Assembly (NCBI RefSeq): GCF_020905375.1
Contig: NZ_JAJJBU010000014.1
Span: 1-64,000, forward strand
DNA from: Arthrobacter cryoconiti
Lineage (GTDB): Bacteria; Actinomycetota; Actinomycetes; Actinomycetales; Micrococcaceae
Direction: 5' to 3'
DNA: 64,000 nucleotides
The notes below the pieces were generated by a model. It was not told the DNA's origin, did not search any database, and saw only the letters and a program-made list of their open reading frames with translations. Both the position numbers and the translations under genes were made by a program. Shown here one piece after another: positions 5,822-61,037 of the stretch. Every line of letters begins with the position of its first letter. The stretch's first letter is position 1.

Positions 5822-7075
5822 TCAAGCTTTTTCAACTGCCGGAAACGCGACGTCGTACTGGAGTCGTTTAAGCGTTGCGATGATCTCCGCTTTGTGGTCC
5901 TGACCTTTGGTCTCGACCTTGACGGCGATCTGCACATCGGTTGCCGCGAGCCCGGTGCTCGTTCGGTCGTGCTCAACGCTCACCACGTTGCATTCCGTTT
6001 GCGCCAGGGCGGTGAGGAGCTTGACGAGTGAACCGGGCCGATCGGACACACGGACTATCATCTCCATAAATCGCCCGGCCACTACGAGTCCGTGCAGCAG
6101 CACCCGATTCAGCAACAAGGTATCGACATTTCCGCCTGACAGGACGACGACGATTGGCCCCTCCAAACCAATCGATCCGGCGAGGAGAGCGGCAACACCA
6201 ACGGCACCGGCAGGCTCCACAACCAGCTTGGCTCGCTCACTCAGGAACAGCATGGCCTCGCCGATCTGCTCTTCGGTCACCGTGCGAATTTCAGCGACGT
6301 GCTTGCGCACAATTCCTAAAGTCAACTCACTAGGTTCAGGCACCGCGATCCCGTCGGCGATGGTCGCCATCTGAGTCAGACGCACCGGCGCTCCCTTGGA
6401 CAACGACGCCGGAAATGCGGCTGCACCCTCAGCTTGTACCCCGACGACTTGTGCTCGGGAGCCGGAAAGATGCACTGCTATGGCAACCCCTGCGAGCAAC
6501 CCGCCGCCTCCCGTAGGGACAAGGATCGTGCCTACTTGTGGGACCTGCTCAAGGACTTCTAGACCCAAGGTGGCCTGGCCGGTAACGATATCAACGTGAT
6601 CGAACGGTGGGATGAAAACACGTCCACTTTCGGCTGCCTCGATTTGTGCCAACTCGATGGATTCTGCTAGATCTTCCCCGGCCAGGCGTACCTCGGCGCC
6701 ATAGGTGCGGGTAGCAGTCACTTTTGGAAGTGCCGCACCATTGGGCATAAAGACGATGCAATCAATCCCGAGCTCTCGGGCGGCAACGGCCACACCTTGG
6801 GCGTGGTTGCCAGCGCTTGCTGCTATCACTCCTTTTTTGCGATCCGTCTCGCTAAGTGCAGAGAGCCGCGTGAACGCGCCACGCAATTTAAACGAGCCCG
6901 TCCGCTGTAGGTTCTCACACTTGAGAAAAACCGATGTCCCCGCAACTGCGCTCAGTGATGAGCTGGTCTCTATTGGCGTGTAAGCTGTCACCCCGTTGAG
7001 CAACCTTCTGGCACGTTCAATATCGGCGAGGCTGATCGGGGAAATATCGTCGTTGACCGGCTCTAATGCACTCAT
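5822..7075 (-). CDS. ilvA: threonine ammonia-lyase with C-terminal ACT-like domain
   Basis: A 417-residue PLP enzyme converting L-threonine to 2-oxobutyrate and ammonia. The PLP lysine lies in GSFKLRGA (Lys63), the phosphate-binding glycine loop is TGGGGLLAG near residue 195, and SAGNHAQG is the conserved N-terminal segment. The C-terminal ~80 residues (FMEMIVRVSDRPGSLVKLL onward) form an ACT-type regulatory domain. The overall length matches the ~400-residue single-ACT form. An AAGGAG ribosome binding site lies 8 nt before the ATG. A biosynthetic (isoleucine) or catabolic role cannot be separated by sequence. No ilv genes are nearby. Confidence 0.9.
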   Translation of the reverse strand: MSALEPVNDDISPISLADIERARRLLNGVTAYTPIETSSSLSAVAGTSVFLKCENLQRTGSFKLRGAFTRLSALSETDRKKGVIAASAGNHAQGVAVAARELGIDCIVFMPNGAALPKVTATRTYGAEVRLAGEDLAESIELAQIEAAESGRVFIPPFDHVDIVTGQATLGLEVLEQVPQVGTILVPTGGGGLLAGVAIAVHLSGSRAQVVGVQAEGAAAFPASLSKGAPVRLTQMATIADGIAVPEPSELTLGIVRKHVAEIRTVTEEQIGEAMLFLSERAKLVVEPAGAVGVAALLAGSIGLEGPIVVVLSGGNVDTLLLNRVLLHGLVVAGRFMEMIVRVSDRPGSLVKLLTALAQTECNVVSVEHDRTSTGLAATDVQIAVKVETKGQDHKAEIIATLKRLQYDVAFPAVEKA

Positions 7076-7287
7076 ACGGAGACTCCTTCACTTGAAACAA
7101 GCTAAAGTCCCGAGAGGAAAGTAGCCAGCCCGTTTGCGTGAAGCGTGGTCGGCCTGGTCGTCTTTGACCTGCTCACCTCACTCGGGAGCAATCTCTCTCA
7201 CCATAGGACATACTGCTCCGGCATGGTTAGCTCAGACACGACGGGGAGCATGAACCGTTTGGGTTTTTTGCTGAAAGGCTAGAATTT

Positions 7288-7689
7288 CTAGAGCGGTTTT
7301 TCCACTAGCGCCTGGCGGTAGAACACGATCTTGTCGCGGATGACCTGACGGTAGGCGATCAGTTCTTCGATCTTCGTGTCGAGAGAACTGGCGTGGGCTT
7401 CCATCAACTCAATCCGTTCGGACTCGTTTCCATCGCCTGCACGGACCAGGTCGGAGTATTTAGCCATGTCGGCTACCGGCATGCCAGACTCGCGGAGCCG
7501 TGTCAGCAACATTAGCCAGAGCGCAGCGTCCGTATCGAATATCCGCTGACCACCTGGGGTTCTTCGAATGTCCCGAGGGAACAAGCCCTGAGCTTCGTAC
7601 CAGCGCAGGGTGTGCACACTCAAGCCGGAAAGATCGGCCATTTCTCCGATCGTGTTGTCTCGCTTGCTTAAAGCCGCATTGTTCGCCAT
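7288..7689 (-). CDS. MerR-family regulator
   Basis: A 133-residue regulator. The N-terminal winged helix-turn-helix (TIGEMADLSGLSVHTLRWYEAQGLFP, about residues 13-38) is followed by a dimerisation helix. The short effector region has no Cys metal-binding loop, so it is not a heavy-metal MerR. An AAGGGGA ribosome binding site precedes the ATG. It is divergent from the SDR at 7740, and the shared 51-bp gap contains a perfect MerR-type operator. It therefore very likely controls the SDR and itself. Confidence 0.88.
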   Translation of the reverse strand: MANNAALSKRDNTIGEMADLSGLSVHTLRWYEAQGLFPRDIRRTPGGQRIFDTDAALWLMLLTRLRESGMPVADMAKYSDLVRAGDGNESERIELMEAHASSLDTKIEELIAYRQVIRDKIVFYRQALVEKPL

Positions 7690-7701
7690 GAAACCATCCC
7701 C

Positions 7702-7732
7702 TTGACCTAGAGTGCACTCTAAATCGTAGCCT
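7702..7732 (+). promoter_or_regulatory. MerR-type promoter/operator for the SDR gene
   Basis: TTGACC (-35, 7702-7707) and TAGCCT (-10, 7727-7732) are separated by 19 bp, the lengthened spacer typical of MerR-activated promoters. The spacer holds the perfect palindrome TAGAGTGCACTCTA (7708-7721). The expected transcription start falls at about 7739-7740, on the ATG itself, so the SDR message is probably leaderless. Confidence 0.8.
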
Positions 7733-7739
7733 GTTGGGT

Positions 7740-8723
7740 ATGACTACAACAGAAGACATGATCGTCCGCCAGCAGCCTCTTGCCACCGCGTTCGGGTATC
7801 GCACCACAGCCACCGAAGTCCTCTCCTCTTCGGACCTGGCGTCAAAGACCGCCATTGTCACGGGCGGCTATTCAGGTCTCGGGATCGAGACGGTGAAGGC
7901 GTTAACCGTCGCGGGGGCTGCTGTTATAGTCCCCGCTAGACGACCGGACGCCGCCAGGGCTGCCCTTGCCGGTTTAGCCGGGGTGACCGTCACGGCGATG
8001 GATCTTGGTGATCTTGATTCGGTCGCCGCATTCTCCCAATCTGTTCGAGAAGATGGCACCGCGATCGATATCATGATCAACGTCGCAGGGGTGATGGCCT
8101 CGCCGTACTCGCTCACACCCCAGGGATGGGAATCGCAGTTCGGAGTGAACTACCTAGGTCATTTTGCCCTCGTTGCGGGGGTAGCTGAACTGCTAAGTGA
8201 CGGCGCCCGCGTGGTGTCCTACTCGTCAACGGGGCACTACCTTTCGCCGGTCAACTTTGATGACATTAACTTCGAACACACGCCGTACGATCCATGGATC
8301 GCCTACGGCCAGTCCAAGACGGCCGACGCGCTATTTGCCGTTGCCCTCGACGCCCGCGCCGCCTCGCATGGCGTCCACGCATTCTCCGTACACCCGGGCG
8401 GGATCATGACGGAGCTTCAGCGGCACATGTCTCGTGAAGAACTCATCAAACGGCAGTGGGTTGACGCAGACGGCAAACCGAACGAAATGTTCAAGACCCC
8501 GGCTCAGGGAGCTGCGACAGCCTTGTGGGCTGCAACCGCCCCCCAGCTGGTAGACCGCGGCGGGGTGTATTGCGAAGACTGCTCCATTTTGGGTCTCGCT
8601 GCGCAAGCGCAAGGGTCACTGGCAACGGGAGGCGTTAAAAAATGGGCTATCGACATGGACGCCGCAGATCGCCTGTTCGCTCTTTCCGTAAAGGCGACTG
8701 GGCTAAACCCGTTCGCGGACTGA
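7740..8723 (+). CDS. short-chain dehydrogenase/reductase (long, retinol-dehydrogenase-like)
   Basis: A 327-residue SDR. TGGYSGLG is the cofactor motif (near residue 40), NVAG replaces NNAG, YSSTG carries the catalytic Ser, and YGQSK is the Tyr-Lys motif. Length and motif spacing resemble WW-domain oxidoreductase/retinol dehydrogenase-like SDRs. The ATG at 7740 is chosen because it coincides with the predicted transcription start of the MerR-type promoter; an in-frame TTG at 7734 is less likely. The substrate is unknown. Confidence 0.85.
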   Translation: MTTTEDMIVRQQPLATAFGYRTTATEVLSSSDLASKTAIVTGGYSGLGIETVKALTVAGAAVIVPARRPDAARAALAGLAGVTVTAMDLGDLDSVAAFSQSVREDGTAIDIMINVAGVMASPYSLTPQGWESQFGVNYLGHFALVAGVAELLSDGARVVSYSSTGHYLSPVNFDDINFEHTPYDPWIAYGQSKTADALFAVALDARAASHGVHAFSVHPGGIMTELQRHMSREELIKRQWVDADGKPNEMFKTPAQGAATALWAATAPQLVDRGGVYCEDCSILGLAAQAQGSLATGGVKKWAIDMDAADRLFALSVKATGLNPFAD

Positions 8724-8760
8724 GTCACCTCACTGTCATGCCGCACTTATGATCGGAGCT

Positions 8761-9408
8761 ATGAATGAACCTCGTGATATCACACGGACTCGGGCCGCGT
8801 ATGACGCCGTAGCAGTGAGCTACGAACAACTATTGCGCGGCCTTATGGCGGAGAAACCTTATGACAGGGGTGTTCTTTCTATCTTTGCTGAACGGGTCCG
8901 CGGCACGGGTAATCTAACAGTGCTGGACGCCGGTTGTGGCCCTGGAAGAGTTGCGGGCTATCTGGACTCGTGCGGGGTGAGTGTGCGCGGAATTGACCTT
9001 TCGCCTGGCATGGTTGAGGTTGCGAGAAGGTCCTATCCATCGATCAATTTTGCCGTCGGAACTGTGGAAGCGCTAGACGCCGCTCCGGGGGAGTTGGGTG
9101 GGATCCTCGCCTGGTATTCGCTCATCCACACTCCACCCCAACGCCGTCGTGATGTTTTCGACGGCTTCGCCAGGGCCCTAATACCGGGAGGATTCCTTCT
9201 TCTCGCTTTCCAAGTAGGTGACACTCAACGGCACATTGAGCACGCCTATGGACACGCGATCAATCTGGACGCTTTCTTGATGGATCCACAGAGAATCGAA
9301 ATTCTCTTAGAATCGGCTGGCTTTGCCATCGAGGCTCGGCTGGTCCGGGAAGCCGATAAAGACGAGCACACTCCCCAGGCGTATTTGATCGCGCGTGCCC
9401 GGAACTAG
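8761..9408 (+). CDS. class I SAM-dependent methyltransferase
   Basis: A 215-residue protein with the Rossmann-fold SAM site VLDAGCGPGRVAGYLD (motif I, near residue 55) and GIDLSPGMVEVAR (motif II). These are followed by LAWYSLIHTPP, typical of UbiE/Methyltransf_25-type enzymes. Start choice: a GGAG lies 4-5 nt before the ATG at 8761, whereas the upstream in-frame ATG at 8749 has none. The methyl acceptor is unknown. It is monocistronic, about 25 bp after the SDR. Confidence 0.8.
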   Translation: MNEPRDITRTRAAYDAVAVSYEQLLRGLMAEKPYDRGVLSIFAERVRGTGNLTVLDAGCGPGRVAGYLDSCGVSVRGIDLSPGMVEVARRSYPSINFAVGTVEALDAAPGELGGILAWYSLIHTPPQRRRDVFDGFARALIPGGFLLLAFQVGDTQRHIEHAYGHAINLDAFLMDPQRIEILLESAGFAIEARLVREADKDEHTPQAYLIARARN

Positions 9409-9420
9409 GCAAGCGTAGGA

Positions 9421-10398
9421 CTACGGATGTAGCACAATCTTCCCTACGCGGCCGGGAGTTAAGTTCTCCTTTGCCGCAGTCCTTGCTTCGTCGAACGAGT
9501 AGCTGGCTTCCACCGGAAGCGTTATTACTGCGCTGCCAATGTAGTCAACTAGTTCGCCAAGCAGTGCACCACGCTTTTGGCAGGGCATAGATGCGCTGAC
9601 CTTGCTTCCCCAAAAACCGCGGACGCTTAGTTGTTTGAAGATAATGTCTCCAGATCCGATTTGCATCACAGGGGATTGCATAGCACCGAAAACTACCAGA
9701 GTGCCAGCGTCAGCAAGAAGTGAAAGTACCTCCCCGCTTGCACTGCCTCCTACAGAGTCGATGCCAGCAATAATAGGCGCGTCGCCTACGATCGCTCTTA
9801 CCTCATTGACCCATCCAGTGGAATCAGTGGAAACAATGTTCTTGATGCCCTGTTCGGAGAGCTCACCCACTCCATCGCCACGCCTGACTAAGCCAATAAC
9901 GTTGAGCCCTCGCGCCGCAGCGAGTTGAGCCAAGAGGCGCCCCACTGTACCGTTGGCGGCGTTTTGAACAAACCAGTCGCCCGAAGACAGGTTCAACGAG
10001 TCCAAGAGACTGATAGCGCTAAATGGCATGGAAATCAGCTGGCCAGCTACCTCGTCAGAAATAGAATCGTCTACTGGAATCAAAGCACCCGCCTTGGCAA
10101 TGAAGTATTCCGCCCAGACCCCAAAAGTGCCGCCCGTGGCAACCCGTTGACCCACATTAAGGCCAGTGACACCATCACCGATGGCATCGACGATACCAAC
10201 GGCTTCGGAGCCCGCGCGAGCTGGTAATTCGGGTTTGAACCCATAAGTGCCGCGGATGGTCCAGAGATCGTGGTTATGGATGGGGGAGAGCAGTAGCCGA
10301 ACACGAACTTCACCCGAACCTGGGTCAGGGACAGGAATGTCTTCGACGGTGAGAACCTCGGAGGGATCTCCAAAATCGTGATGCACTAAAGCTCGCAT
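9421..10398 (-). CDS. MDR-superfamily oxidoreductase (quinone/enoyl reductase-like)
   Basis: A 325-residue medium-chain dehydrogenase/reductase. The N-terminal GroES-like domain (PARAGSEAVGIVDAIGDGV) lacks the Cys/His zinc ligands of alcohol dehydrogenases. The Rossmann domain begins NAANGTVGRLLAQLA, a variant of the NAANS-VG motif of the trans-2-enoyl-CoA reductase/quinone oxidoreductase branch. It is probably NADPH-dependent; the substrate is unknown. It lies 72 bp after the DoxX gene in the same direction and may belong to the ohr-doxX transcript. Confidence 0.8.
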   Translation of the reverse strand: MRALVHHDFGDPSEVLTVEDIPVPDPGSGEVRVRLLLSPIHNHDLWTIRGTYGFKPELPARAGSEAVGIVDAIGDGVTGLNVGQRVATGGTFGVWAEYFIAKAGALIPVDDSISDEVAGQLISMPFSAISLLDSLNLSSGDWFVQNAANGTVGRLLAQLAAARGLNVIGLVRRGDGVGELSEQGIKNIVSTDSTGWVNEVRAIVGDAPIIAGIDSVGGSASGEVLSLLADAGTLVVFGAMQSPVMQIGSGDIIFKQLSVRGFWGSKVSASMPCQKRGALLGELVDYIGSAVITLPVEASYSFDEARTAAKENLTPGRVGKIVLHP

Positions 10399-51755: not shown

Positions 51756-52223
51756 ATGAGTGAAAATGGCGGGGGAGCAGGAGTTTTGAGCACTGCTGAA
51801 CGGCTGCTGCTCTCTGGTGCGTCCGGAGTCTGCGTTGAGCACACGGTTGAATGGGTCGACACCGATGCTGCCGGGCATCAGCATAACTCTGCGATCATGC
51901 GGTGGGTTGAATCTGCGGAGGCGGAGCTTTTTCGCCAATTGCGGCTACCAGAGTATTTCCCCACTGCGCCACGCGTTCATCAATCAATCAACTTCTTGGG
52001 GAAACTTTGGTTTGGTCAACGGGTTAGCACCACTTTGTGGGTGAAGAAGATCGGCACAACGTCAATGACGTTTTCCTTTGAGGTTCAGGGCCATTCGATG
52101 CCCAAGAATGCGGGCGGTCTGGCTGCTTCAGGAACGTTGATTACGGCGCATGTTCCTTTGGGGTCCTCTGGTTCAATGCCCTGGCCCGCAAGCTTTCTCA
52201 CAACGATCAAAGCTGAACAATGA
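51756..52223 (+). CDS. hotdog-fold acyl-CoA thioesterase (4HBT-like)
   Basis: A 155-residue hotdog protein. The 4-hydroxybenzoyl-CoA thioesterase-like active-site segment VEWVDTDAAGHQHNSAIMRWVESAEAELFR carries the catalytic Asp. It is probably leaderless. It overlaps paaX by 4 bp. Its position at the edge of the aryl-CoA cluster suggests hydrolysis of an aromatic CoA ester, or recycling of stalled intermediates. Confidence 0.82.
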   Translation: MSENGGGAGVLSTAERLLLSGASGVCVEHTVEWVDTDAAGHQHNSAIMRWVESAEAELFRQLRLPEYFPTAPRVHQSINFLGKLWFGQRVSTTLWVKKIGTTSMTFSFEVQGHSMPKNAGGLAASGTLITAHVPLGSSGSMPWPASFLTTIKAEQ

Positions 52224-53086
52224 CGGGGCATCCGCAACCATCGGTGCGACACCAGCAACTGATTATTACGCTCTTTGGACTTTATAGCCGTGACCCGGGT
52301 AGGGCCGTCCCCGTTTCGGTTCTTATTGAAATGCTTGGTTCGCTCGGATACGACGCTCCGGGTGTCAGATCCTCCGTTTCACGCCTGAAAGCAAAGGGTG
52401 TACTGCGAAGCGTCAAGAGCAACAACGTGGCCCAATACACACTTGAGGAAGGGCTGGCCGATGTATTCAGGGAAGGGGACGACCGCATTTTTTCCCCGGT
52501 AGGTGCAAACCTCGGCGATGGATGGATACTGGCCATCTTTTCAGTTCCCGAGTCATTGCGGAGCAGGCGGCATACGCTGCGAACCGAATTGTTGAATTTC
52601 GGCTTCGGGTTCATTTCCTCTGGAGTCTGGATTGCTCCCGTTTCTGTCTTGGACAGGGTTCGTAGCCGGCTCGTTGCCCTCAAACTTGACCAGTTTGTGG
52701 ACTTTTTCAGCGGAGACTACGTGGCTGATGGGTCGATGCGTGAAAAAGTTGCCCAATGGTGGGACCTGACTCACCTGGACGAACAATTTGGAGAATTTCT
52801 AGAATTCTATGGCGACGCCGTGAACCACTGGACGGCGTTGGTGGGCTCGGACCCGGGCCTAGCGCTGGAGGAGTCAACGCCGGAGCTGCGACTCGAAGCG
52901 TTCAAGTACTACATACCCATGCTGACCCTCTGGCGTCGCTTCCCCTATAAGGATCCGAACCTTCGAAGTGAACTGCTACCGGAAGGCTGGAAGGGTGCTG
53001 CGGCCCGGGAGACCTTTTTAGCGGTCCACAAACTCATTGCACCATTGGCAGACGCCCACGCTAAGACACTGCTGACTTTGGCATAA
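52220..53086 (+). CDS. PaaX-family transcriptional regulator
   Basis: A 288-residue regulator. The N-terminal winged helix (LYSRDPGRAVPVSVLIEMLGSLGYDAPGVRSSVSRLKAKGVL, about 15-60) and the central PaaX domain (GDGWILAIFSVPESLRSRRHTLRTELLNFGFG) are clear. PaaX proteins repress aromatic catabolic operons and respond to aryl-CoA such as phenylacetyl-CoA. Here the ligand is probably the CoA ester made by the ligase at 56114. It is coupled to the thioesterase gene. Confidence 0.88.
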   Translation: MTGHPQPSVRHQQLIITLFGLYSRDPGRAVPVSVLIEMLGSLGYDAPGVRSSVSRLKAKGVLRSVKSNNVAQYTLEEGLADVFREGDDRIFSPVGANLGDGWILAIFSVPESLRSRRHTLRTELLNFGFGFISSGVWIAPVSVLDRVRSRLVALKLDQFVDFFSGDYVADGSMREKVAQWWDLTHLDEQFGEFLEFYGDAVNHWTALVGSDPGLALEESTPELRLEAFKYYIPMLTLWRRFPYKDPNLRSELLPEGWKGAAARETFLAVHKLIAPLADAHAKTLLTLA

Positions 53087-53151
53087 AGCGCGCTGATTTC
53101 ATTGCGTATCGGCGTATGGGGTCTATGGGGGTGCTCATGGAATCTCCCAAG

Positions 53152-53544
53152 TCACTCAATGACTGCAACTCCTTGAATTTCGATCAGCGCCTCCTTTTGC
53201 CAGAGACGGCTGACGCCTATTCCTGCCATGGCCGGGTACTCGGTGCCCGCCATGGAGCGCCATAGCCGACCTATCTCCCGGCCGTTGGCCATGTAGTCGT
53301 CAACGTCGGTGAGGTAGATGGTGACACTGACCAAGTCCTGTGGTTGCCCGCCGGCTTCGATAAGTGTGGTGAGGACATTCCCGAAGGCCTGTTTGAATTG
53401 TTCCACTATCCCCCCGGGAACAATGTTCATGTCCTTATCGAGGGCCGTTTGACCCCCCAAATATACGGTGCCTGCCGCGAGGATGCCGTGCGCATACCCC
53501 GACGGTTTGGCCAGGGACGATGGATTGACGGTCTTTTTCGGCAA
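53152..53544 (-). CDS. Rid-family protein lacking the catalytic Arg
   Basis: A 130-residue YjgF/RidA-fold protein (AHGILAAGTVYLGGQTALD, TIYLTDVDDY, IQGVAVIE). Compared with E. coli RidA, the PARS segment holding the essential Arg105 reads YPAMAGIGV here, and the conserved IEIEA reads IEIQG. Imine deamination by the canonical mechanism is therefore unlikely. It lies between paaX and the divergent FAH operon. It may belong to a Rid subgroup linked to amino-aromatic degradation. Confidence 0.85.
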   Translation of the reverse strand: MPKKTVNPSSLAKPSGYAHGILAAGTVYLGGQTALDKDMNIVPGGIVEQFKQAFGNVLTTLIEAGGQPQDLVSVTIYLTDVDDYMANGREIGRLWRSMAGTEYPAMAGIGVSRLWQKEALIEIQGVAVIE

Positions 53545-53654
53545 AGCGAACCTCCACGCTTAGCGCTCCAACCCTGGTCTATTAATTTCGTGCGACCTGA
53601 GCCTTTTGTGGAACTGTGATTAGTGTTACATTGAGTCTATGTGACGACCGTAAA

Positions 53655-53714
53655 TATGTCGACATACGCGTGATCGACATACGAACGATTGATTCACGAA
53701 CGACAGTCACGAAC
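53655..53714. promoter_or_regulatory. repeat-rich control region of the aryl-CoA operon
   Basis: The perfect palindrome TATGTCGACATA lies at 53655-53666, with GACATACG at 53661 and again at 53676 (15-bp period). ACGAACGA occurs at 53681 and 53696 (15-bp period), with a further ACGAAC at 53709. TGATTCACGA (53690-53699) matches 9 of 10 positions of the core TGATTCGYGW of the E. coli PaaX site. It lies 26-85 bp before the FAH gene. Confidence 0.6.
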
Positions 53715-53739
53715 TTAGGCTCCGAAAGGAACGGCATCA

Positions 53740-54600
53740 ATGAAGCTGGCGACACTACGAACAGGACCAGGCGCAACTTCTGCGGGACTCGCAGTGGGAG
53801 CCGAAGGCTTCATGTTGCTTCCTGCCGCGAACGTAGGAGATCTGCTGGCCGATCCGCAGTGGAGAACCATAGTCGCGGATGCGCAGAGCCGTGACTGCGA
53901 GAAATTCACACCAATAGATCGTGCCGAGCTGGCGCCCCTACTTCCAACGGCAGCCAAAGTGATCTGCTGCGGGCTCAATTATGCAGACCATATTTTGGAA
54001 ATGGGCCGGGAACTTCCGGAATATCCCACACTTTTTGTCAAATATGCGGATACGTTGACGGGCGCCATTGACCCTATCCATGTTTATGGAAGCCAACGTG
54101 TTGATTGGGAAGCTGAGCTGGCTGTTGTTGTGGGCGAGACGCTGATACGGGCAGATGAAGAAGAAGCTTCGCGCGCTATTGCCGGCTACACCGTGGCTAA
54201 CGATGTTTCAATGCGTGACTGGCAGAACCGCACCTTGCAGTGGTTCCAAGGAAAAGCGTTTGACGCCACGACTCCCGTGGGCCCGGTCATGGTCACGGCC
54301 GATGAATTCCCGCAAGGCCACGGCTTCGACGTCCGCGGATTCGTCAACGGGGAGGTTGTCCAAAGCGGCAATACCTCATCGCTGGTTTTTAGTCCCGCCC
54401 GACTTCTATCGTATATTTCACAGTTCACCACGCTTCGAGCAGGAGACCTGGTGCTAACGGGGACCCCCGGCGGAGTCGGGATGGGTATGACGCCGCCACG
54501 GTACCTCAACGATGGCGATGTTCTCGCCACCGAGATCGCCGGAATAGGTCGCCTAGAAAACACCATCCGCTTTTGTGGAGCAAACAGTAAACAAGTCTAA
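53740..54600 (+). CDS. fumarylacetoacetate hydrolase-family protein
   Basis: A 286-residue FAH-fold enzyme. The metal-binding and catalytic pattern is visible in CCGLNYADHILEMG, DWEAELAVVVGETL (E-x-E-type ligands), GYTVANDVSMRDWQ and LTGTPGGVGMG. Members hydrolyse acylpyruvates such as fumarylpyruvate, or decarboxylate dicarboxylates, after ring cleavage. It is first gene of the operon FAH-cupin-thioesterase-ligase-monooxygenase/reductase. It suggests the pathway yields an acylpyruvate-like ring-cleavage product. Confidence 0.88.
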   Translation: MKLATLRTGPGATSAGLAVGAEGFMLLPAANVGDLLADPQWRTIVADAQSRDCEKFTPIDRAELAPLLPTAAKVICCGLNYADHILEMGRELPEYPTLFVKYADTLTGAIDPIHVYGSQRVDWEAELAVVVGETLIRADEEEASRAIAGYTVANDVSMRDWQNRTLQWFQGKAFDATTPVGPVMVTADEFPQGHGFDVRGFVNGEVVQSGNTSSLVFSPARLLSYISQFTTLRAGDLVLTGTPGGVGMGMTPPRYLNDGDVLATEIAGIGRLENTIRFCGANSKQV

Positions 54601-54689
54601 AAGCACACTGACCTATGTTACGGATTTTCTAAAGAATTGCTTATCAACGACCATCCCCACAGAACATGAATCGGCAAGGAGAAGCCAAA

Positions 54690-55175
54690 ATGAAAGAGAC
54701 TCACACTTACCTCACCGAAGGCGACAACTCGATCTATGCCAACGCGGACGGAGTCGTACTTCCGGTTGTAACCCGAGCGGGCCAGGAAAGCGTGGACACC
54801 GCCCAGTCCGGAGATGCTGTGCGGGTATCAGGTGTGTCCATCCAGCACACGCCGGCCACCAAGATTTGGTTTGGCCAAGTGTCCAACACGCCAGGGTACC
54901 GGTCGCTGCCGCACCATCATGGCGAAGCTGAGACCGGTGGCTATGTTCTTCGCGGTCATGGCCGCATCTACTTCGGGGAAAATTTCTCACAGTTTCTTGA
55001 TATGACTGCTGGCGATTGGGTTTTCGTTCCACCCTTCATGCCACACGTTGAAGCCAATATGTCCATCACGGAAGAGCTGGTGTGGCTTACAGCGAGGACG
55101 CCCGAGAACCTGGTGATCAACCTTCCCGACGTGGAAGATGCAATTCTTGCCGACTACCGCCGCGCAAACTCATGA
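54690..55175 (+). CDS. single-domain metal-binding cupin
   Basis: A 161-residue cupin. Motif 1 is LPHHHGEAETGGYVLRGHG (HxHx4Ex6G) and motif 2 GDWVFVPPFMPHVEAN, so the 3-His/1-Glu metal site is complete. Gentisate and related ring-cleaving dioxygenases are cupins but usually bicupin and about 350 residues; this one has a single domain. A ring-cleavage role is therefore only a candidate. It overlaps the next gene by 4 bp (ATGA). Confidence 0.8.
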   Translation: MKETHTYLTEGDNSIYANADGVVLPVVTRAGQESVDTAQSGDAVRVSGVSIQHTPATKIWFGQVSNTPGYRSLPHHHGEAETGGYVLRGHGRIYFGENFSQFLDMTAGDWVFVPPFMPHVEANMSITEELVWLTARTPENLVINLPDVEDAILADYRRANS

Positions 55176-56068
55176 GCGGTGAATTGATGATCGCGAGTGC
55201 GGGAACATCCGGGGCGTTCCTGAAAGCCATTGAGCTGACTCACGTTGATGCACGGCTGGGCGATCTGGCGTTCGAAGCGAACACACAATACGTCCCTTGG
55301 CCCAAGTCCTATGGGGGTGACATGGTGGCACAAGCCGCCGCGTCAATGATGCGCTCAGTAGAAGCAGATCGAACTTTGCACTCCATGCACAGCTACTTTA
55401 TGCGGCCGGTGGATATCGGTGCCGTGGTGCGGTACGAAGTGGAAACCTTACGTGATGGACGGGGCTATTCCACCAGGACCGTGCGAGGGTATCAAAACGA
55501 AAAAGCTGTATTCGTGGCGATGGCGTCCTTTCACGTTCCTGAGCTTGGACCCAACTTCCAGCCAGGTATCCCAGAGGCATTCAGTCCGGCCGTTATTGAT
55601 CCAGACTCCCTGCAAAGTGCTGCAGAAGTTCTTGACGAAGTAGCGGGTACCGCCGCGGACTACTGGTCCCATGGACGCAGCTTTGACATCCGGCACATCC
55701 CCGGGCCGCTCTACCTGGAATCGGACGGCGCTCGTACGCCCGTACAAGCGGTATGGATCAAGGCTTTTCAGCGGCTAGACGATGACGCCAACTTGCATCG
55801 ACTAGCCCTCGCGTATGTCTGCGATTACACCATTTTGGAGCCACTGCTTCGGGTCAATGGACTTAATTGGTCCTCTGCAGGGTTGGCGACCGCCAGCCTT
55901 GACCACTCCATGTGGTTCCACCGGGAAGGCCGCGCAGATGAATGGGTGTTGTATGTCCAAGAAGCCGTATCAGGACAAAATAGCCGTGGTTTAGCCATCG
56001 GTCGAATGTTTTCCCGCAGTGGCGAGCTCTTGGCCACCGTTGCCCAAGAAGGAATGGTCCGGGGTTAG
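55172..56068 (+). CDS. acyl-CoA thioesterase II (TesB-like)
   Basis: A 298-residue double-hotdog protein. The N-terminal hotdog (PKSYGGDMVAQAAASMMRSV, LHSMHSYFMRPVD) and C-terminal hotdog (LAYVCDYTILEPL, SLDHSMWFHR) match the TesB family. The ATG at 55172 overlaps the cupin stop. Frames open further upstream but run inside the cupin gene. It would release a free acid from an aryl-CoA in this pathway. Confidence 0.88.
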   Translation: MSGELMIASAGTSGAFLKAIELTHVDARLGDLAFEANTQYVPWPKSYGGDMVAQAAASMMRSVEADRTLHSMHSYFMRPVDIGAVVRYEVETLRDGRGYSTRTVRGYQNEKAVFVAMASFHVPELGPNFQPGIPEAFSPAVIDPDSLQSAAEVLDEVAGTAADYWSHGRSFDIRHIPGPLYLESDGARTPVQAVWIKAFQRLDDDANLHRLALAYVCDYTILEPLLRVNGLNWSSAGLATASLDHSMWFHREGRADEWVLYVQEAVSGQNSRGLAIGRMFSRSGELLATVAQEGMVRG

Positions 56069-56113
56069 GCGCTCCGCCACTCTGCCCTAGACCAGAAAAT
56101 GAAAGGAATGGCC

Positions 56114-57778
56114 ATGACGATGATGACTTCGGCCCATGTGGATACTTTTGCCCGAGACCACCTTCCACCTAAAAAATCGTGGCCGGTACTGGAATTCACG
56201 CTACCCGAATTGCAGTATGCGCAGCGGTTGAATGCTGCAACTGTGCTCATTGACGACGGCGTTGCCAACTTTGGTGCCGAGCGCCCGGCGCTTCATACCC
56301 CCGACGGCGGAGTGTGGACGTATGGGGAATTATTGACCCGTGCCAACCAGGCGGCCCAAGTTCTGAGTGAAGACTTCGGAATCGTACCGGGTAACCGTGT
56401 GCTTTTGCGTGGCCCCAACAATCCTTGGTTGGTCGCCCTGTGGCTAGGGGTGCTCAAAGCTGGTGGTGTGGTTGTCACGACGATGCCGATGCTGCGTTCG
56501 GCCGAAGTAGCCGGATTGTTGAAGCTGACTCAGCCTTCTGTGGCCATTACAGATCACCGCTTTGCGCACGAAATGCAACAGGCGGCCCCCGATGGTTCTA
56601 TTCCTGTGATTACGTATGGCAACGTGACGGACCCCGACGATTTCATTCAGCGTTGTGGCGCCAAAGATGGTGTCTTTGCCAATGTTGAGACGTCCGCAGA
56701 CGACGTTGCACTTCTTGGGCCAACGTCCGGTACCACTGGCACGCCGAAGATCACTATGCACTTTCACCGCGACATTCTTGCGAATGCTGATACATTCGCC
56801 CGCCATATTCTCAAGCCGACGCCGGATGATGTCTTTGCCGGGTCGCCGCCACTAGCTTTTACTTTTGGGCTGGGTGGTTTGGTGGTTTTCCCACTACGTT
56901 TTGGGGCTGCGGCACTGTTAACAGAACGCACAACTCCCGTTGAATTGGCGGAGGCGGCCGCAAACGCCGGTGCCAGTGTCTTGTTCACGGCACCTACTGC
57001 GTATCGGGCAATTTTGAAAGCCGGCCGTGGCGAGCTTTTGAGCCGGTTACGACTTGGCGTCTCTGCTGGAGAGCACCTGCCCCAAGCAACGTGGGAGCAC
57101 GTCTACCAGGAGACCGGGATCAAACTGATCGATGGGATCGGCTCTACGGAGATGCTGCACGTCTTTATTTCTGCTGCGGGGGATGACATTCATCCGGGGG
57201 CCACCGGCATTCCCGTCCCCGGATACCGCGCCGTCATCTTGGACATGGACGGTAACGAGGTGGAACGAAATACCCCAGGGAGGCTGGGGGTTATCGGTCC
57301 GACAGGTTGTCGATACCTTCAAGACCCTCGGCAAAACAACTATGTGTGTAACGGCTGGAACGTTACCGGGGACACGTTTATCCAAGATGATGAAGGCTAT
57401 TTCATCTATCAAGCCAGAAGCGACAACATGATTGTTTCCTCCGGCTATAACATTGGTGCTCCCGAAGTTGAAGCGGCTATCAATGAACACAAAGACGTGG
57501 TTGAGTGCGCCGTTGTTGCCCGCCCAGATACGGAACGCGGCCAAGTGGTGTGCGCCTTCGTGGTGCTCAACGATGGAGCAGTCGGGGACGAGGCGAAGCG
57601 CAAAGAAATCCAGGACTTCGTCAAGGCCACGATCGCACCGTACAAATACCCCCGTGACGTTCGTTTTGTTGATGAGCTACCGAAGAATCCGAGCGGAAAA
57701 CTGCAGCACTTCCGCCTTCAAGAGGCGATCTTGGCAGCCTCCGCCCCCGCCGAGAGAGAAGAAGGAAAAGTCCTATGA
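56114..57778 (+). CDS. aryl-CoA ligase, 2-aminobenzoate/benzoate-CoA ligase type
   Basis: A 554-residue AMP-forming ligase. The P-loop is [12 protein letters not shown], and [31 protein letters not shown] and the catalytic C-terminal [12 protein letters not shown] follow. The overall pattern ([14 protein letters not shown] at the start) is that of benzoate/2-aminobenzoate-CoA ligases. Start choice: AAAGGA is 6 nt before the ATG at 56114. It overlaps the monooxygenase/reductase gene by 4 bp, making the ligase and its consumer enzyme obligate partners. Anthranilate is the favoured substrate, with salicylate possible. Confidence 0.88.
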
Positions 57779-60201
57779 AAATCGCAATTGTTGGAGGCGG
57801 CCCCGGCGGATTGTACTTCGCTGCACTTATGAAGCAACTAGATTCCAACCACCAAGTCACGCTATGGGAGCGCAACGCTGCTAGCGACACTTTCGGATTT
57901 GGAGTCGTCTTCTCGGATGAAACCCTAGGTGGCATCGGCAACGCGGATCCTGTGGTGGCAGAGTATATGAGTCGGCGGTTTGCCCGTTGGAGCGACATCG
58001 ACATCCATTTCAGGGATGAAATGCACACCGTTGGTGGCCAAGGATTTGCGGCCATGAGTCGGAAGGAATTACTGGAACTCTTGCATCGGCGCACCCTGGA
58101 ACTCGGGGTCGATGTCCGGTTTAGCACTCTGGCTCCGGATGTTGCGGAACTGGAAAAAGACTATGACCTAGTGCTGGCTGCGGATGGTGTGAACTCTGGA
58201 ATCCGCAGCAAATACGCTGATTCGTTTGTTCCCACCTTGGATGTACGGAACAACAAATTTATGTGGCTTGGTACTGATCAAGTCTTCGAGGCTTTCAAGT
58301 TCTACATCAAAGAGACCCGATGGGGCACCATGCAGATCCATGGCTACCCTTACTCCGATGAAGGATCCACCTTCATTGTTGAAATGTCACCCGATGTCTG
58401 GCGTCGAGCAGGCTTTGATGAAACGGTGGGGGAATCGTTTCCCCCCGGCGCTTCCGATGAGAAAGCCGTTGCAAAAATACGAGACATCTTTAGAACGGAA
58501 CTGGATGGGGATGAAGTACTTACCAACAATTCCAAGTGGCTAAACTTCACCACTGTACGCAACGAGCATTGGCACCGAGGCAATGTAGTCCTCTTAGGTG
58601 ACGCTGCCCATACCGCCCACTTTTCCGTTGGTTCGGGAACCAAATTGGCGATGGAGGACGCACTGGCCCTAGCCGCCTGCCTGCACGAACACCCGGACCT
58701 GGCCTCGGCCTTGGACGCCTACGAAACAGAACGGCGCCCCGTCGTCGAATCAACTCAGCGTGCTGCACAAGCATCGCTGGAATGGTTTGAGAACATCGGT
58801 CAGTATAAGGATCAGGACCCCACCTCGTTTTGCTTCAATCTGTTGACGCGCAGCCGACGAATCACTTATGAGAATCTGAAATTGCGTGATCCGGAGTTTG
58901 CGGAGCAGGTGGATGCAAATTTTGCGGCCTCTCAGGGGCTTGAACAGGTGGCTCCTGCAATGTTCCAACCATTTAAGATCGGTGAGTTGGAGCTGAAAAA
59001 CAGAATTGTTGTCTCTCCGATGGATATGTACTCGGCAAAAAGCGGTGTCCCGGGGAACTTTCACCTGGTCCATTTGGGTAGTAAGGCCATGGGCGGGGCA
59101 GGGCTGGTAATGACCGAAATGGTATGCGTCAGCGCACAAGGAAGGATCACTCCGGGGTGCAGCGGACTGTACACGGACGCTCAGGGTGAAAGCTGGCGGG
59201 AGGTTGTAGAGTTTGTGCACACTCAATCCACTGCCAAGATGGGCGTCCAGATCGGCCATTCTGGCCGCAAAGGTTCCACGAAGCTCATGTGGGACGGCAT
59301 AGATGAGCCGCTGGACGAGGGGAACTGGGAGGTGTGCGGACCTTCGGCGCTTCCGTACAGCGTGAATAACCAAGTTCCTCGAGAGCTCACGCGTGCGCAG
59401 ATGGACGTTGTCCGCGAGGAGTTTGTCGCAGCGACTAGGCGAGGCGCTGCTGCGGGATTTGACCTTCTGGAAGTTCACGCAGCACACGGGTACTTGCTGT
59501 CATCGTTCATTTCGCCGGTGTCCAATACCCGCACGGATGAATATGGGGGGAGCTTGGAAAACCGGATGCGCTTCCCCTTGGAAGTGTTTGACGCGGTGCG
59601 CGAAGTCTGGCCAGCCGAGAAACCTCTCACTGTACGCATCTCTGCCACGGACTGGTGTGACGGTGGCAACACAGCTGAAGAGGGCGTTGAAATTGCTCGA
59701 GCATTCATCGACCACGGCGCAGCGGCGATTGATGTCTCCACGGGACAGGTCAGCAAGGAAGAAAAACCGGCGTTTGGACGCAGCTATCAAACACCATTTG
59801 CTGATCGAATCCGTCATGAGGTGGCAGCGCCGAAGGGGGTAGCCGTCATCGCCGTGGGGATCATTTCCTCCTATGACGACGTCAACTCGATTCTGCTGGC
59901 CGGGCGTGCTGATCTTTGCGCCCTGGGCCGTGCGCACCTTTACGATCCGCAATGGACGCTGCATGCTGCTGCCGAACAGGGATTTGCGTCAGATTCGGCA
60001 GCCTGGGTGCTCCCGTTCCGGGCGGGGAGTCGGAAACCGCCGGCCGCACGGACGGACGCTGTGCGTCCGCGGTTGGCTCTGCTCAAGGAAGAGGAAGCCG
60101 CGGATTTGACCGTTCATCTTCGCTGGACGCCCAGCGCCAAGTCCACCCAAGAAATGGGTGGACGCGCCGGATTGGAGAGTGTACCTGCAGCCATGTCCTG
60201 A
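57775..60201 (+). CDS. fused FAD monooxygenase/old-yellow-enzyme (2-aminobenzoyl-CoA monooxygenase/reductase type)
   Basis: An 808-residue bifunctional flavoprotein. Residues 1-390 form a class A flavin monooxygenase ([12 protein letters not shown] for [27 protein letters not shown]). Residues 395-770 form an old-yellow-enzyme domain ([53 protein letters not shown]). This is the domain order of Azoarcus 2-aminobenzoyl-CoA monooxygenase/reductase, which hydroxylates C5 and then reduces the ring; databases also call such proteins salicylyl-CoA 5-hydroxylase. Both halves look complete. Confidence 0.93.
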
Positions 60202-60219: not shown

Positions 60220-60269
60220 GTGCTGGATGATTGAACAGGTTCGCCCGTTCAATCATCCAGCACCATTTT
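60220..60269 (+). terminator. intrinsic terminator of the aryl-CoA operon
   Basis: A perfect 17-bp stem (60220-60236 with 60247-60263; inner TGCTGGATGATTGAAC) with a 10-nt loop is followed by CATTTTG. It begins 18 nt after the monooxygenase/reductase stop. Confidence 0.88.
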
Positions 60270-60278
60270 GTCTTCACG

Positions 60279-60284
60279 TACTAT
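60279..60284 (+). promoter_or_regulatory. -10 element of the Nudix gene
   Basis: TACTAT (60279-60284) lies 9 nt before the ATG at 60294. The message would have almost no leader. Promoter and terminator are nearly contiguous. Confidence 0.45.
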
Positions 60285-60293
60285 GGTTGCGCT

Positions 60294-61037
60294 ATGGACC
60301 TAACTCTTGCCCTCGCTCCGCTCGAGGATGCCGCTACGGTGATTTTATTGCAGGACTCACCAACTGGCCCGCAGGTATTGATGCTTGAGCGTCCAGGCCG
60401 AGCTGGGTCGTTTGCCGGTGCCTGGGTTTTTCCCGGTGGCAAGGTGGACCCCGAGGACCGTGAATCAGGGCTTGACGAGCTGGGGGCCGCTCGAAGCGCG
60501 GCTGTGCGCGAGGTGGGCGAGGAAACGGCGCAAGTATTAGCGGCGGATTCTTTGATTCACATTTCGAATTGGACGCCCATGCGGCCCCTCCCACGCCGCT
60601 TTCGTACCTGGTTCTTTCTCGCTCGGGCCGCGTCTGGCAATGTTGTGCTCAGCGAAGGTGAACATGTTGCTTTCGCGTGGATGAAGCCTGCTGCAGTCTT
60701 AGCCAAACATGCGGCCGGAGAAATGCACCTTCTTCCGCCAACGTGGATCAGTCTCTACTTCCTTACTCATGCCTCATCCGTTGCGCAGGCTCTTAGCCGT
60801 GCGCAGAGCGAGATGCCTTTTGACTACACGACCTATGTCCTGGGAGAGGAACTTTCGCGAGTAATAAGTGACTCAAAAGCGATGGGTGGTGGAACGGTTG
60901 TGTGGGCAGGAGACGCGGACTATCCAGGGGTTGGGGCTGGCCCGACAGGCGCGCGCAACAGGCTGTATATGGAATCACTACCGTGGGTTTTTGAACAGGT
61001 AGCAAGTTCAGAAAATGGCAGCAAAAATAAGCTCTAG
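60294..61037 (+). CDS. Nudix hydrolase (NUDT19-like)
   Basis: A 247-residue Nudix protein. The Nudix box is GGKVDPEDRES followed, after an insertion, by AAVREVGEETAQV. An insertion between the G and REVGEE parts is typical of the NUDT19-like group, several of which cleave CoA or its esters. The start at 60294 is preferred because the open frame upstream lies inside the terminator stem. The function here is inferred; the aryl-CoA context makes CoA-ester turnover possible. Confidence 0.85.
   Translation: MDLTLALAPLEDAATVILLQDSPTGPQVLMLERPGRAGSFAGAWVFPGGKVDPEDRESGLDELGAARSAAVREVGEETAQVLAADSLIHISNWTPMRPLPRRFRTWFFLARAASGNVVLSEGEHVAFAWMKPAAVLAKHAAGEMHLLPPTWISLYFLTHASSVAQALSRAQSEMPFDYTTYVLGEELSRVISDSKAMGGGTVVWAGDADYPGVGAGPTGARNRLYMESLPWVFEQVASSENGSKNKL

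Follow-up and report, generated by a model that had tools for sequence, protein, structure and literature searches.

What becomes of the reduced ring derived from anthraniloyl-CoA when the gene cluster concerned lacks the beta-oxidation genes of Azoarcus-type clusters? The question is raised by a cluster at positions 51756-60201 of a 64,000-nucleotide stretch of DNA from the soil bacterium Arthrobacter cryoconiti (the window), which comprises bases 1-64000 of a 225-kb contig in a genome of 3.6 Mb. This cluster encodes a CoA ligase and a fused flavoprotein monooxygenase (FMO)/old yellow enzyme (OYE) reductase, preceded by a fumarylacetoacetate hydrolase (FAH)-family protein, a small cupin and a TesB-type thioesterase. 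We propose that these proteins would together convert anthranilate to pyruvate and succinate through a "dihydro-gentisate" ending, a reading to which we give slightly better than even chances; this ending would replace the final beta-oxidation steps of Azoarcus-type clusters. Using phmmer on all frames of at least 80 aa of the window, we found no match at 1e-5 to the enoyl-CoA hydratase, acyl-CoA dehydrogenase or hydroxyacyl-CoA dehydrogenase of the Paracoccus cluster, and only two weak matches (31-32 bits, near 4 and 8 kb) to short-chain dehydrogenases/reductases (SDR). The features of the locus are:

51756..52223, plus strand: hotdog (4HBT) thioesterase (Pfam 4HBT_2/4HBT)
52220..53086, plus strand: PaaX-type repressor (Pfam PaaX, PaaX_M, PaaX_C), overlapping the hotdog gene by 4 bp
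53152..53544, minus strand: Rid-family gene (Pfam Ribonuc_L-PSP)
53642..53653, no strand: palindrome TGACGACCGTAA in the Rid-FAH gap, candidate PaaX-type operator of the operon
53740..54600, plus strand: FAH-family hydrolase P0005 (Pfam FAA_hydrolase), proposed succinylpyruvate (acylpyruvate) hydrolase
54690..55175, plus strand: single-domain cupin P0004 (Pfam Cupin_2; reading frame open from 54666), proposed dioxygenase that would cleave the ring of a beta-keto thioester with O2
55172..56068, plus strand: TesB-type acyl-CoA thioesterase (Pfam Acyl_CoA_thio, 4HBT_3C; reading frame open from 55082)
56114..57778, plus strand: predicted anthranilate-CoA ligase (Pfam AMP-binding; reading frame open from 56099)
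57775..60201, plus strand: fused FAD monooxygenase/OYE reductase P0001, 808 aa (Pfam FAD_binding_3 + Oxidored_FMN), of the 2-aminobenzoyl-CoA monooxygenase/reductase type

The order is therefore hotdog, PaaX, Rid (minus strand), FAH, cupin, TesB, ligase and fused enzyme, and the positions and Pfam domains bear out the genes, places and families named in the initial annotation, including the 4-bp overlap between the ligase frame (56099-57778) and the fused-enzyme gene (57775-60201). Judged by eye from the upstream bases, 54690 and 56114 are the likely start codons of cupin and ligase, and TesB most likely starts at 55172 rather than 55082, giving a 4-bp ATGA overlap with the cupin stop. As the Rid gene is on the minus strand and divergent from FAH, it lies beside the operon and is not part of it.

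Distribution of the cupin set and of beta-oxidation genes

We considered a sample of 396 genomes of the order, from which 28 loci were fetched with their flanks (the A. cryoconiti genome and G016 were left out), and named loci from public genomes, namely the best 80 of 136 found; some strains are common to both sets. A locus was typed by a cupin match of at least 100 bits, or, for beta-oxidation, by a match of 200 bits or more to the enoyl-CoA hydratase or the acyl-CoA dehydrogenase encoded in the Paracoccus cluster. The full-length fused enzyme, with both domains, occurs in 30 of the 396 genomes and the cupin (E<=1e-15) in 27, of which 26 are among the 30 (Fisher P 2e-35, counting genomes as independent and ignoring kinship), so that this linkage is not due to chance. 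The exceptions are G285, which has only the cupin, and G004, G016 (on a 4-kb contig), G023 and G368, which have only the fused enzyme. Conserved linkage to FAH, cupin and TesB genes, on which the initial annotation had made its reading depend, was found: 25 of the 28 order loci and 34 of the 80 named loci have all three.

The two sets of genes exclude each other. Among the 80 named loci, 37 are of the cupin type, 34 of the beta-oxidation type, none is both and nine are neither (Fisher P 2e-14), and the order loci comprise 25, two and one cupin-type, beta-oxidation-type and untyped loci, respectively. TesB (at least 100 bits) is confined to cupin-type loci in both sets and is accompanied by FAH in 34 of the 37 named ones, the three without FAH being L084, L085 (probably because its contig starts there) and L089. 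L084 and L089 carry TesB and no FAH within 22 kb, and another hydrolase or a distant FAH may substitute there. By contrast with TesB, Rid is found in 77 of the 80 named loci (35/37 of the cupin type and 34/34 of the beta-oxidation type) and in all 28 order loci, and its presence in both types indicates that it belongs to the shared part of the pathway. A homologue of the hotdog thioesterase (at least 80 bits) occurs, at variable positions, in nine of the 37 cupin-type and none of the 34 beta-oxidation-type named loci and hence is not a fixed part of the cluster; a possible role would be the release of wrongly activated acids.

We then annotated with locus type a FastTree phylogeny of the fused enzyme, built from 98 sequences, of which 51 come from cupin-type loci, 37 from beta-oxidation-type loci and 10 from loci of neither type; the order set contributed 12 of its 28 loci. 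The cupin label requires 3 changes on this tree against 33 in shuffles, with a long-branch warning at one of the three places, so that the ending follows the ancestry of the fused enzyme, yet has probably switched. The initial annotation had seen in the cluster a combination of parts of two routes; the cupin/FAH/TesB set looks less like such a patchwork and rather like a second, recurrent ending behind the same upper route.

That upper route resembles the 2-aminobenzoyl-CoA pathway of Azoarcus evansii in its ligase and fused monooxygenase/reductase (PMC4539516, as far as the passages concerned go). The window shares Rid with the Paracoccus and Ruegeria clusters, the two annotated non-actinobacterial clusters examined, which are both of the beta-oxidation type; in Azoarcus-type clusters genes for enoyl-CoA hydratase, acyl-CoA dehydrogenase and SDR, joined in Paracoccus by one for hydroxyacyl-CoA dehydrogenase, take the place of this FAH, TesB and this cupin family. 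The Paracoccus stretch does have an annotated FAH-family gene, which phmmer with P0005 did not match, and the Ruegeria cluster a cupin without detected relation to that of the window.

Some loci depart from the general pattern. On the plasmid of Arthrobacter sp. ERGS1:01 (L062), matches to FAH, TesB and PaaX are split over several frames at about 7000-10300, while the adjoining ligase and fused-enzyme genes look intact, and this operon copy may be decaying. The cupin family has another branch, represented at L155:7506-11985 (G114) and L156:3601-9544 (G285) by proteins with 46% and 56% identity, respectively, to P0004. It adjoins genes for MaoC, acyl-CoA dehydrogenase and carboxyltransferase, plus one for an OYE in L155 and one for a gentisate-type FAH in L156; no fused enzyme was found in either stretch, which suggests a different pathway that reuses the cupin or, in L156, cupin and FAH.

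The substrate and the relation to plasmid pAL1

The fused enzyme matches the NCBIfam family NF006101, named "bifunctional salicylyl-CoA 5-hydroxylase/oxidoreductase", at 1215.6 bits (cut-off 1078), and it presents the architecture of the fused 2-aminobenzoyl-CoA monooxygenase/reductase of Azoarcus-type pathways. The histidine pair of the OYE motif HxxHGYL is kept in all 98 aligned fused enzymes, that of the window included, in agreement with the earlier argument that a retained reductase domain points to 2-aminobenzoyl-CoA. In the same domain, residues ~415-419 of P0001 read PMDMY, as in 69 of the 98 members by a loose pattern, at the position where YqjM-type OYEs have PMCMY; this variant might tune the flavin.

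The closest described system is that of pAL1 (pARUE113), the linear plasmid of Arthrobacter sp. Rue61a, annotated in the order PaaX, hypothetical protein, RidA, FAH, cupin, TesB, ligase, fused enzyme, PaaX, hotdog. RidA (minus strand), FAH, cupin, TesB, ligase and fused FMO/OYE thus have the same order in pAL1 and in the window; the differences are that pAL1 has a PaaX gene (minus strand) and the hotdog gene after the fused enzyme and a further PaaX gene upstream, whereas in the window PaaX and hotdog genes are both upstream, and that the window copy is on a 225-kb contig. The fused enzymes are 78% identical, and the A. cryoconiti ligase is 74% identical to the ligase adjoining the fused enzyme on pAL1, which we take, by its position, to be ARUE_113p00220. 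The initial annotation had named related genes in quinaldine-degrading Arthrobacter, and this precedent holds; the full layout, which it had marked as deserving a look, is already annotated on pAL1 and is not new. What appears new here, as no earlier account was found in the literature searched, is the dihydro-gentisate reading of the lower half, the either/or relation to beta-oxidation and the grouping of the FAHs; the words cupin and fumarylacetoacetate are absent from the main text of PMC3534580.

According to the sections of that article used here, the plasmid ligase of Rue61a and a chromosomal paralogue make anthraniloyl-CoA, and anthranilate supports growth of the strain, which salicylate, gentisate and 5-hydroxyanthranilate do not, 5-hydroxyanthranilate being converted cometabolically (PMC3534580). 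CoA esters of formula C7H7NO3 and C7H8O4 were present only in anthranilate-grown cells, and the authors suggest hydroxyanthraniloyl-CoA and cyclohexanedione-carboxyl-CoA, respectively (PMC3534580). Since the window ligase is 74% identical to that of a plasmid whose host has this growth range, the substrate is most likely anthranilate, degraded via CoA thioesters, as the initial annotation had supposed.

The genes found near such loci are consistent with this. Anthranilate is a breakdown product of tryptophan, and genes of the tryptophan-dioxygenase or kynureninase type were found near six cupin-type loci (L050, L054, L062, L063, L090 and L121) and one beta-oxidation-type locus (L103). In Rhodococcus erythropolis BG43 (L194), the cluster genes adjoin aqdC1, annotated as a dioxygenase of 2-heptyl-3-hydroxy-4-quinolone (the Pseudomonas quinolone signal, PQS), a route that leads to anthranilate. 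The A. cryoconiti genome itself has kynureninase and tryptophan dioxygenase matches, both above their cut-offs, and no match to gentisate dioxygenase (TIGR02272), for which 14 control genomes gave none above the cut-off and four weaker matches; within the rest of the 64-kb window, the kynurenine and gentisate query proteins had no match at 1e-5. We favour ANTHRANILATE over salicylate as the substrate, and the NCBI name "salicylyl-CoA 5-hydroxylase/oxidoreductase" would seem to be misleading for these fused proteins.

Proposed steps from the reduced ring to pyruvate and succinate

In the proposed route, the ligase would convert anthranilate to anthraniloyl-CoA and, after the fused enzyme, Rid would hydrolyse an enamine to ammonia and 2,5-dioxocyclohexane-1-carboxyl-CoA, a cyclic beta-keto thioester that fits the C7H8O4-CoA of Rue61a. 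With O2, the cupin would then split the C1-C2 bond to give 2,4-dioxopimeloyl-CoA, from which TesB would free 2,4-dioxopimelate (succinylpyruvate) and CoA, and FAH would hydrolyse succinylpyruvate to pyruvate and succinate, so that the seven carbons would be recovered as C4 and C3. TesB might also precede the cupin, although the beta-keto acid so released would be prone to decarboxylation. As this would be a gentisate ending at one reduction level lower, no maleylpyruvate isomerase would be needed.

Among the steps proposed to follow the fused enzyme, that of FAH is the best supported. In P0005 and 19 relatives (20 aligned sequences), H84, E87, E124, E126, D155, R159, Q162 and K172 are invariant, and by their spacing they match the key residues given for the acylpyruvase FAHD1 in the part of PMC7116474 used here (H30, E33, E71, E73, D102, R106, Q109 and K123), namely the His-Glu dyad, the E-x-E...D metal site, the Arg, the Gln and the proton-donor Lys. 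The earlier suggestion that thioesterase and FAH together point to acid release and acylpyruvate hydrolysis is supported. In a tree of 56 FAH sequences (6 rows left out), a single clade (100/98) contains 26 of 28 cupin-type FAHs, all 10 gentisate-cluster FAHs and that of L156, apart from all 17 other paralogues. The two cupin-type FAHs from Microbacterium fall on the gentisate side of this clade (100/98), a placement suggesting that the same activity was recruited a second time. In L050 and L054, the FAH gene is situated beyond PaaX and the stretch has no ligase. Fumarylpyruvate, the substrate of the FAHs of gentisate clusters, is a 2,4-dioxo diacid with seven carbons. All 10 distinct gentisate loci have matches to both gentisate dioxygenase and maleylpyruvate isomerase, whereas neither was found (1e-6) in any of the 66 cupin-type stretches or in the window, the isomerase not being sought genome-wide.

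The cupin residues H83, H84, H85, E89 and H127 (numbered on the longer open reading frame) are invariant in 32 aligned sequences, and H83, H85, E89 and H127 would, by motif, form a complete cupin metal site with its three metal-binding histidines. From these residues and the gene context, we propose a mononuclear metal dioxygenase, since a reduced ring can yield the substrate of an acylpyruvase only if its C1-C2 bond is cleaved oxidatively. A comparable reaction is that of Dke1, a 153-aa cupin with three His ligands which uses O2 to cleave beta-diketones capable of forming cis-keto-enolates, as described in the part of PMC4019311 consulted. The window cupin is likewise of about 150 aa with an HxH...E...H motif, and its proposed reaction, the O2-dependent cleavage of a beta-dicarbonyl, is of the same kind, the difference being that the substrate would be a cyclic thioester; the Dke1 entry 3bal was not among the four PDB matches of the cupin at E<=1.

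Several points weigh against this route. No solved structure is clearly similar to the cupin in sequence (best PDB match E 0.026); its AlphaFold model (mean predicted local distance difference test 76.1) has a generic cupin fold, for which dioxygenases, oxalate decarboxylases, lyases and storage proteins are tied as matches, so that O2 chemistry is only inferred for it, and hhalign against gentisate dioxygenase, with a shallow profile, gave no relation. The TesB step, as proposed, would have to act on an alpha-keto thioester. FAH is missing from the stretches of L084 and L089, the FAHs of L050 and L054 belong to another lineage outside the gentisate/cupin clade, and six of the 37 named cupin-type loci lack a ligase of at least 100 bits in the stretch. 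C7H8O4-CoA is known from the consulted part of the Rue61a account as a formula only, with C7H7NO3-CoA (hydroxyanthraniloyl-CoA) present too. Paralogues are also present on the chromosome of Rue61a, and a mutant that lacks the plasmid can still use anthranilate for growth (PMC3534580, in the same sections); the growth and CoA-ester data therefore belong to the strain and not to the pAL1 operon alone.

We consider unlikely that the ring is opened without oxygen, by retro-Claisen hydrolysis of C1-C2 by FAH (or by the cupin) to 4-oxopimeloyl-CoA, with TesB then giving 4-oxopimelate, the cupin serving for isomerisation or as an accessory metal protein, and genes elsewhere completing the pathway. 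Such hydrolysis is established for the FAH family, cupins include non-oxygenases (tied with dioxygenases in the fold searches), and beta-oxidation-type clusters have no cupin of this family. Against this, the FAH has all the acylpyruvase residues and is placed with gentisate-cluster FAHs, whose substrate is a C7 2,4-dioxo diacid, whereas retro-Claisen hydrolysis would yield no 2-keto acid; moreover, no enoyl-CoA hydratase or acyl-CoA dehydrogenase for 4-oxopimelate was detected in cupin-type stretches (at least 200 bits) or in the window (1e-5).

The placement of the FAH could also be explained by a classical gentisate-type pathway, in which the fused enzyme would mainly form 5-hydroxyanthraniloyl-CoA or gentisyl-CoA, a thioesterase would free the aromatic acid, the cupin would cleave it and FAH would hydrolyse fumaryl- or maleylpyruvate. 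The NCBIfam family name and the C7H7NO3-CoA of anthranilate-grown Rue61a, presumed to be hydroxyanthraniloyl-CoA (PMC3534580, sections as above), would agree with it. We nevertheless find it distinctly improbable, as the OYE histidine pair is retained throughout the 98 fused enzymes, the 66 cupin-type stretches lack maleylpyruvate isomerase and gentisate dioxygenase matches, and Rue61a, with the caveat of uptake, does not grow on gentisate or on 5-hydroxyanthranilate, which it does convert cometabolically (PMC3534580). The order does have gentisate-type (sdg-like) CoA clusters, which resemble that of the window in a homologous FMO, an AMP-forming ligase, PaaX in most stretches, a cupin-fold ring-cleaving enzyme and an FAH of the same clade, 48% identical to P0005. 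They differ in that their FMO has no OYE domain, which the window enzyme has, and in that they carry a bicupin like gentisate dioxygenase and a mycothiol maleylpyruvate isomerase. In L147, the one examined closely, the bicupin reaches 271.6 bits (cut-off 442.1), and the best match of the ligase is to DHB-AMP ligases (593 bits, cut-off 723.55). SdgC, too, is reportedly an FMO without an OYE domain.

It is very improbable that FAH, cupin and TesB form a salvage side branch for dead-end CoA esters while carbon flows through beta-oxidation genes elsewhere: thioesterases often serve CoA salvage, two or three cupin-type loci are without FAH and such genes may be present elsewhere in the genome, but the either/or pattern in 71 of the 80 named loci is what replacement, and not a side branch, predicts. 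Least probable of all is salicylate as the natural substrate, by a Streptomyces sdg-like route, which the initial annotation had put on a par with anthranilate: the NCBIfam name and a divergent Rid gene, which could be unrelated, would allow it, but the identity to the pAL1 proteins with the Rue61a growth data (PMC3534580, in part), the linkage to kynurenine and PQS genes, the presence of Rid in 77 of 80 named loci and the order's separate gentisate-type clusters, with an FMO without OYE and, in L147, a DHB-AMP-type ligase, all oppose it.

Regulation, neighbouring genes and significance

The cluster is probably controlled by a PaaX-type repressor. The PaaX protein of the window is 47% identical to the one encoded downstream of the fused enzyme on pAL1. 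The palindrome TGACGACCGTAA is the sole match to TGACGNNCGTMA in the 64 kb, where 0.24 are expected and 13 of 100 shuffles contain at least one, and it is inside a block conserved among seven aligned Rid-FAH intergenic regions, that of the window included. At the equivalent place pAL1 has TGACGATCGTAA (L061:7953-7964), and a looser form of the palindrome was found in the Rid-FAH span of 27 of the 62 cupin-type loci with both genes and in none of the other 35. The pAL1 PaaX protein MeqR2 is said to bind a palindrome of the TGACGNNCGTcA kind and to respond to anthraniloyl-CoA; positions 53642-53653 differ by one base from TGACGNNCGTcA, a match reached by chance in 13 of 100 window shuffles. In L104, L113, L130 and L131, TGACGGTCGTAA was observed right before the fused enzyme (~9962; match at 10001), and its occurrence in beta-oxidation-type loci of Kibdelosporangium and Actinosynnema is a hint that the same PaaX control may be found in both pathway types.

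Directly 3' of the fused enzyme, on the same strand, is a NUDIX hydrolase gene (60231-61037). This gene, the DUF1348 and TetR genes downstream and, by eye, the minus-strand ABC exporter upstream look unrelated to the cluster.

For the family as a whole, we consider it an even chance that actinobacteria use a new strategy of ring cleavage, in which a cyclic beta-diketone, dearomatised and bound to CoA, is opened with O2 by a small cupin dioxygenase, and deamination, cleavage, CoA release and acylpyruvate hydrolysis lead to pyruvate and succinate without beta-oxidation, and that, behind the same front-end enzymes, one ending has given way to the other more than once, in whichever direction. What happens to the reduced ring is a stated gap: GapMind, a pathway resource of 2022, left out the degradation of tryptophan through anthraniloyl-CoA monooxygenase/reductase because too little was known of it (PMC9007349, in the portion used here). 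The proposal gives each missing step an enzyme and products that can be checked by simple assays and, if true, would tie the breakdown of tryptophan, quinaldine and the Pseudomonas quinolone signal to one short route in soil actinobacteria.

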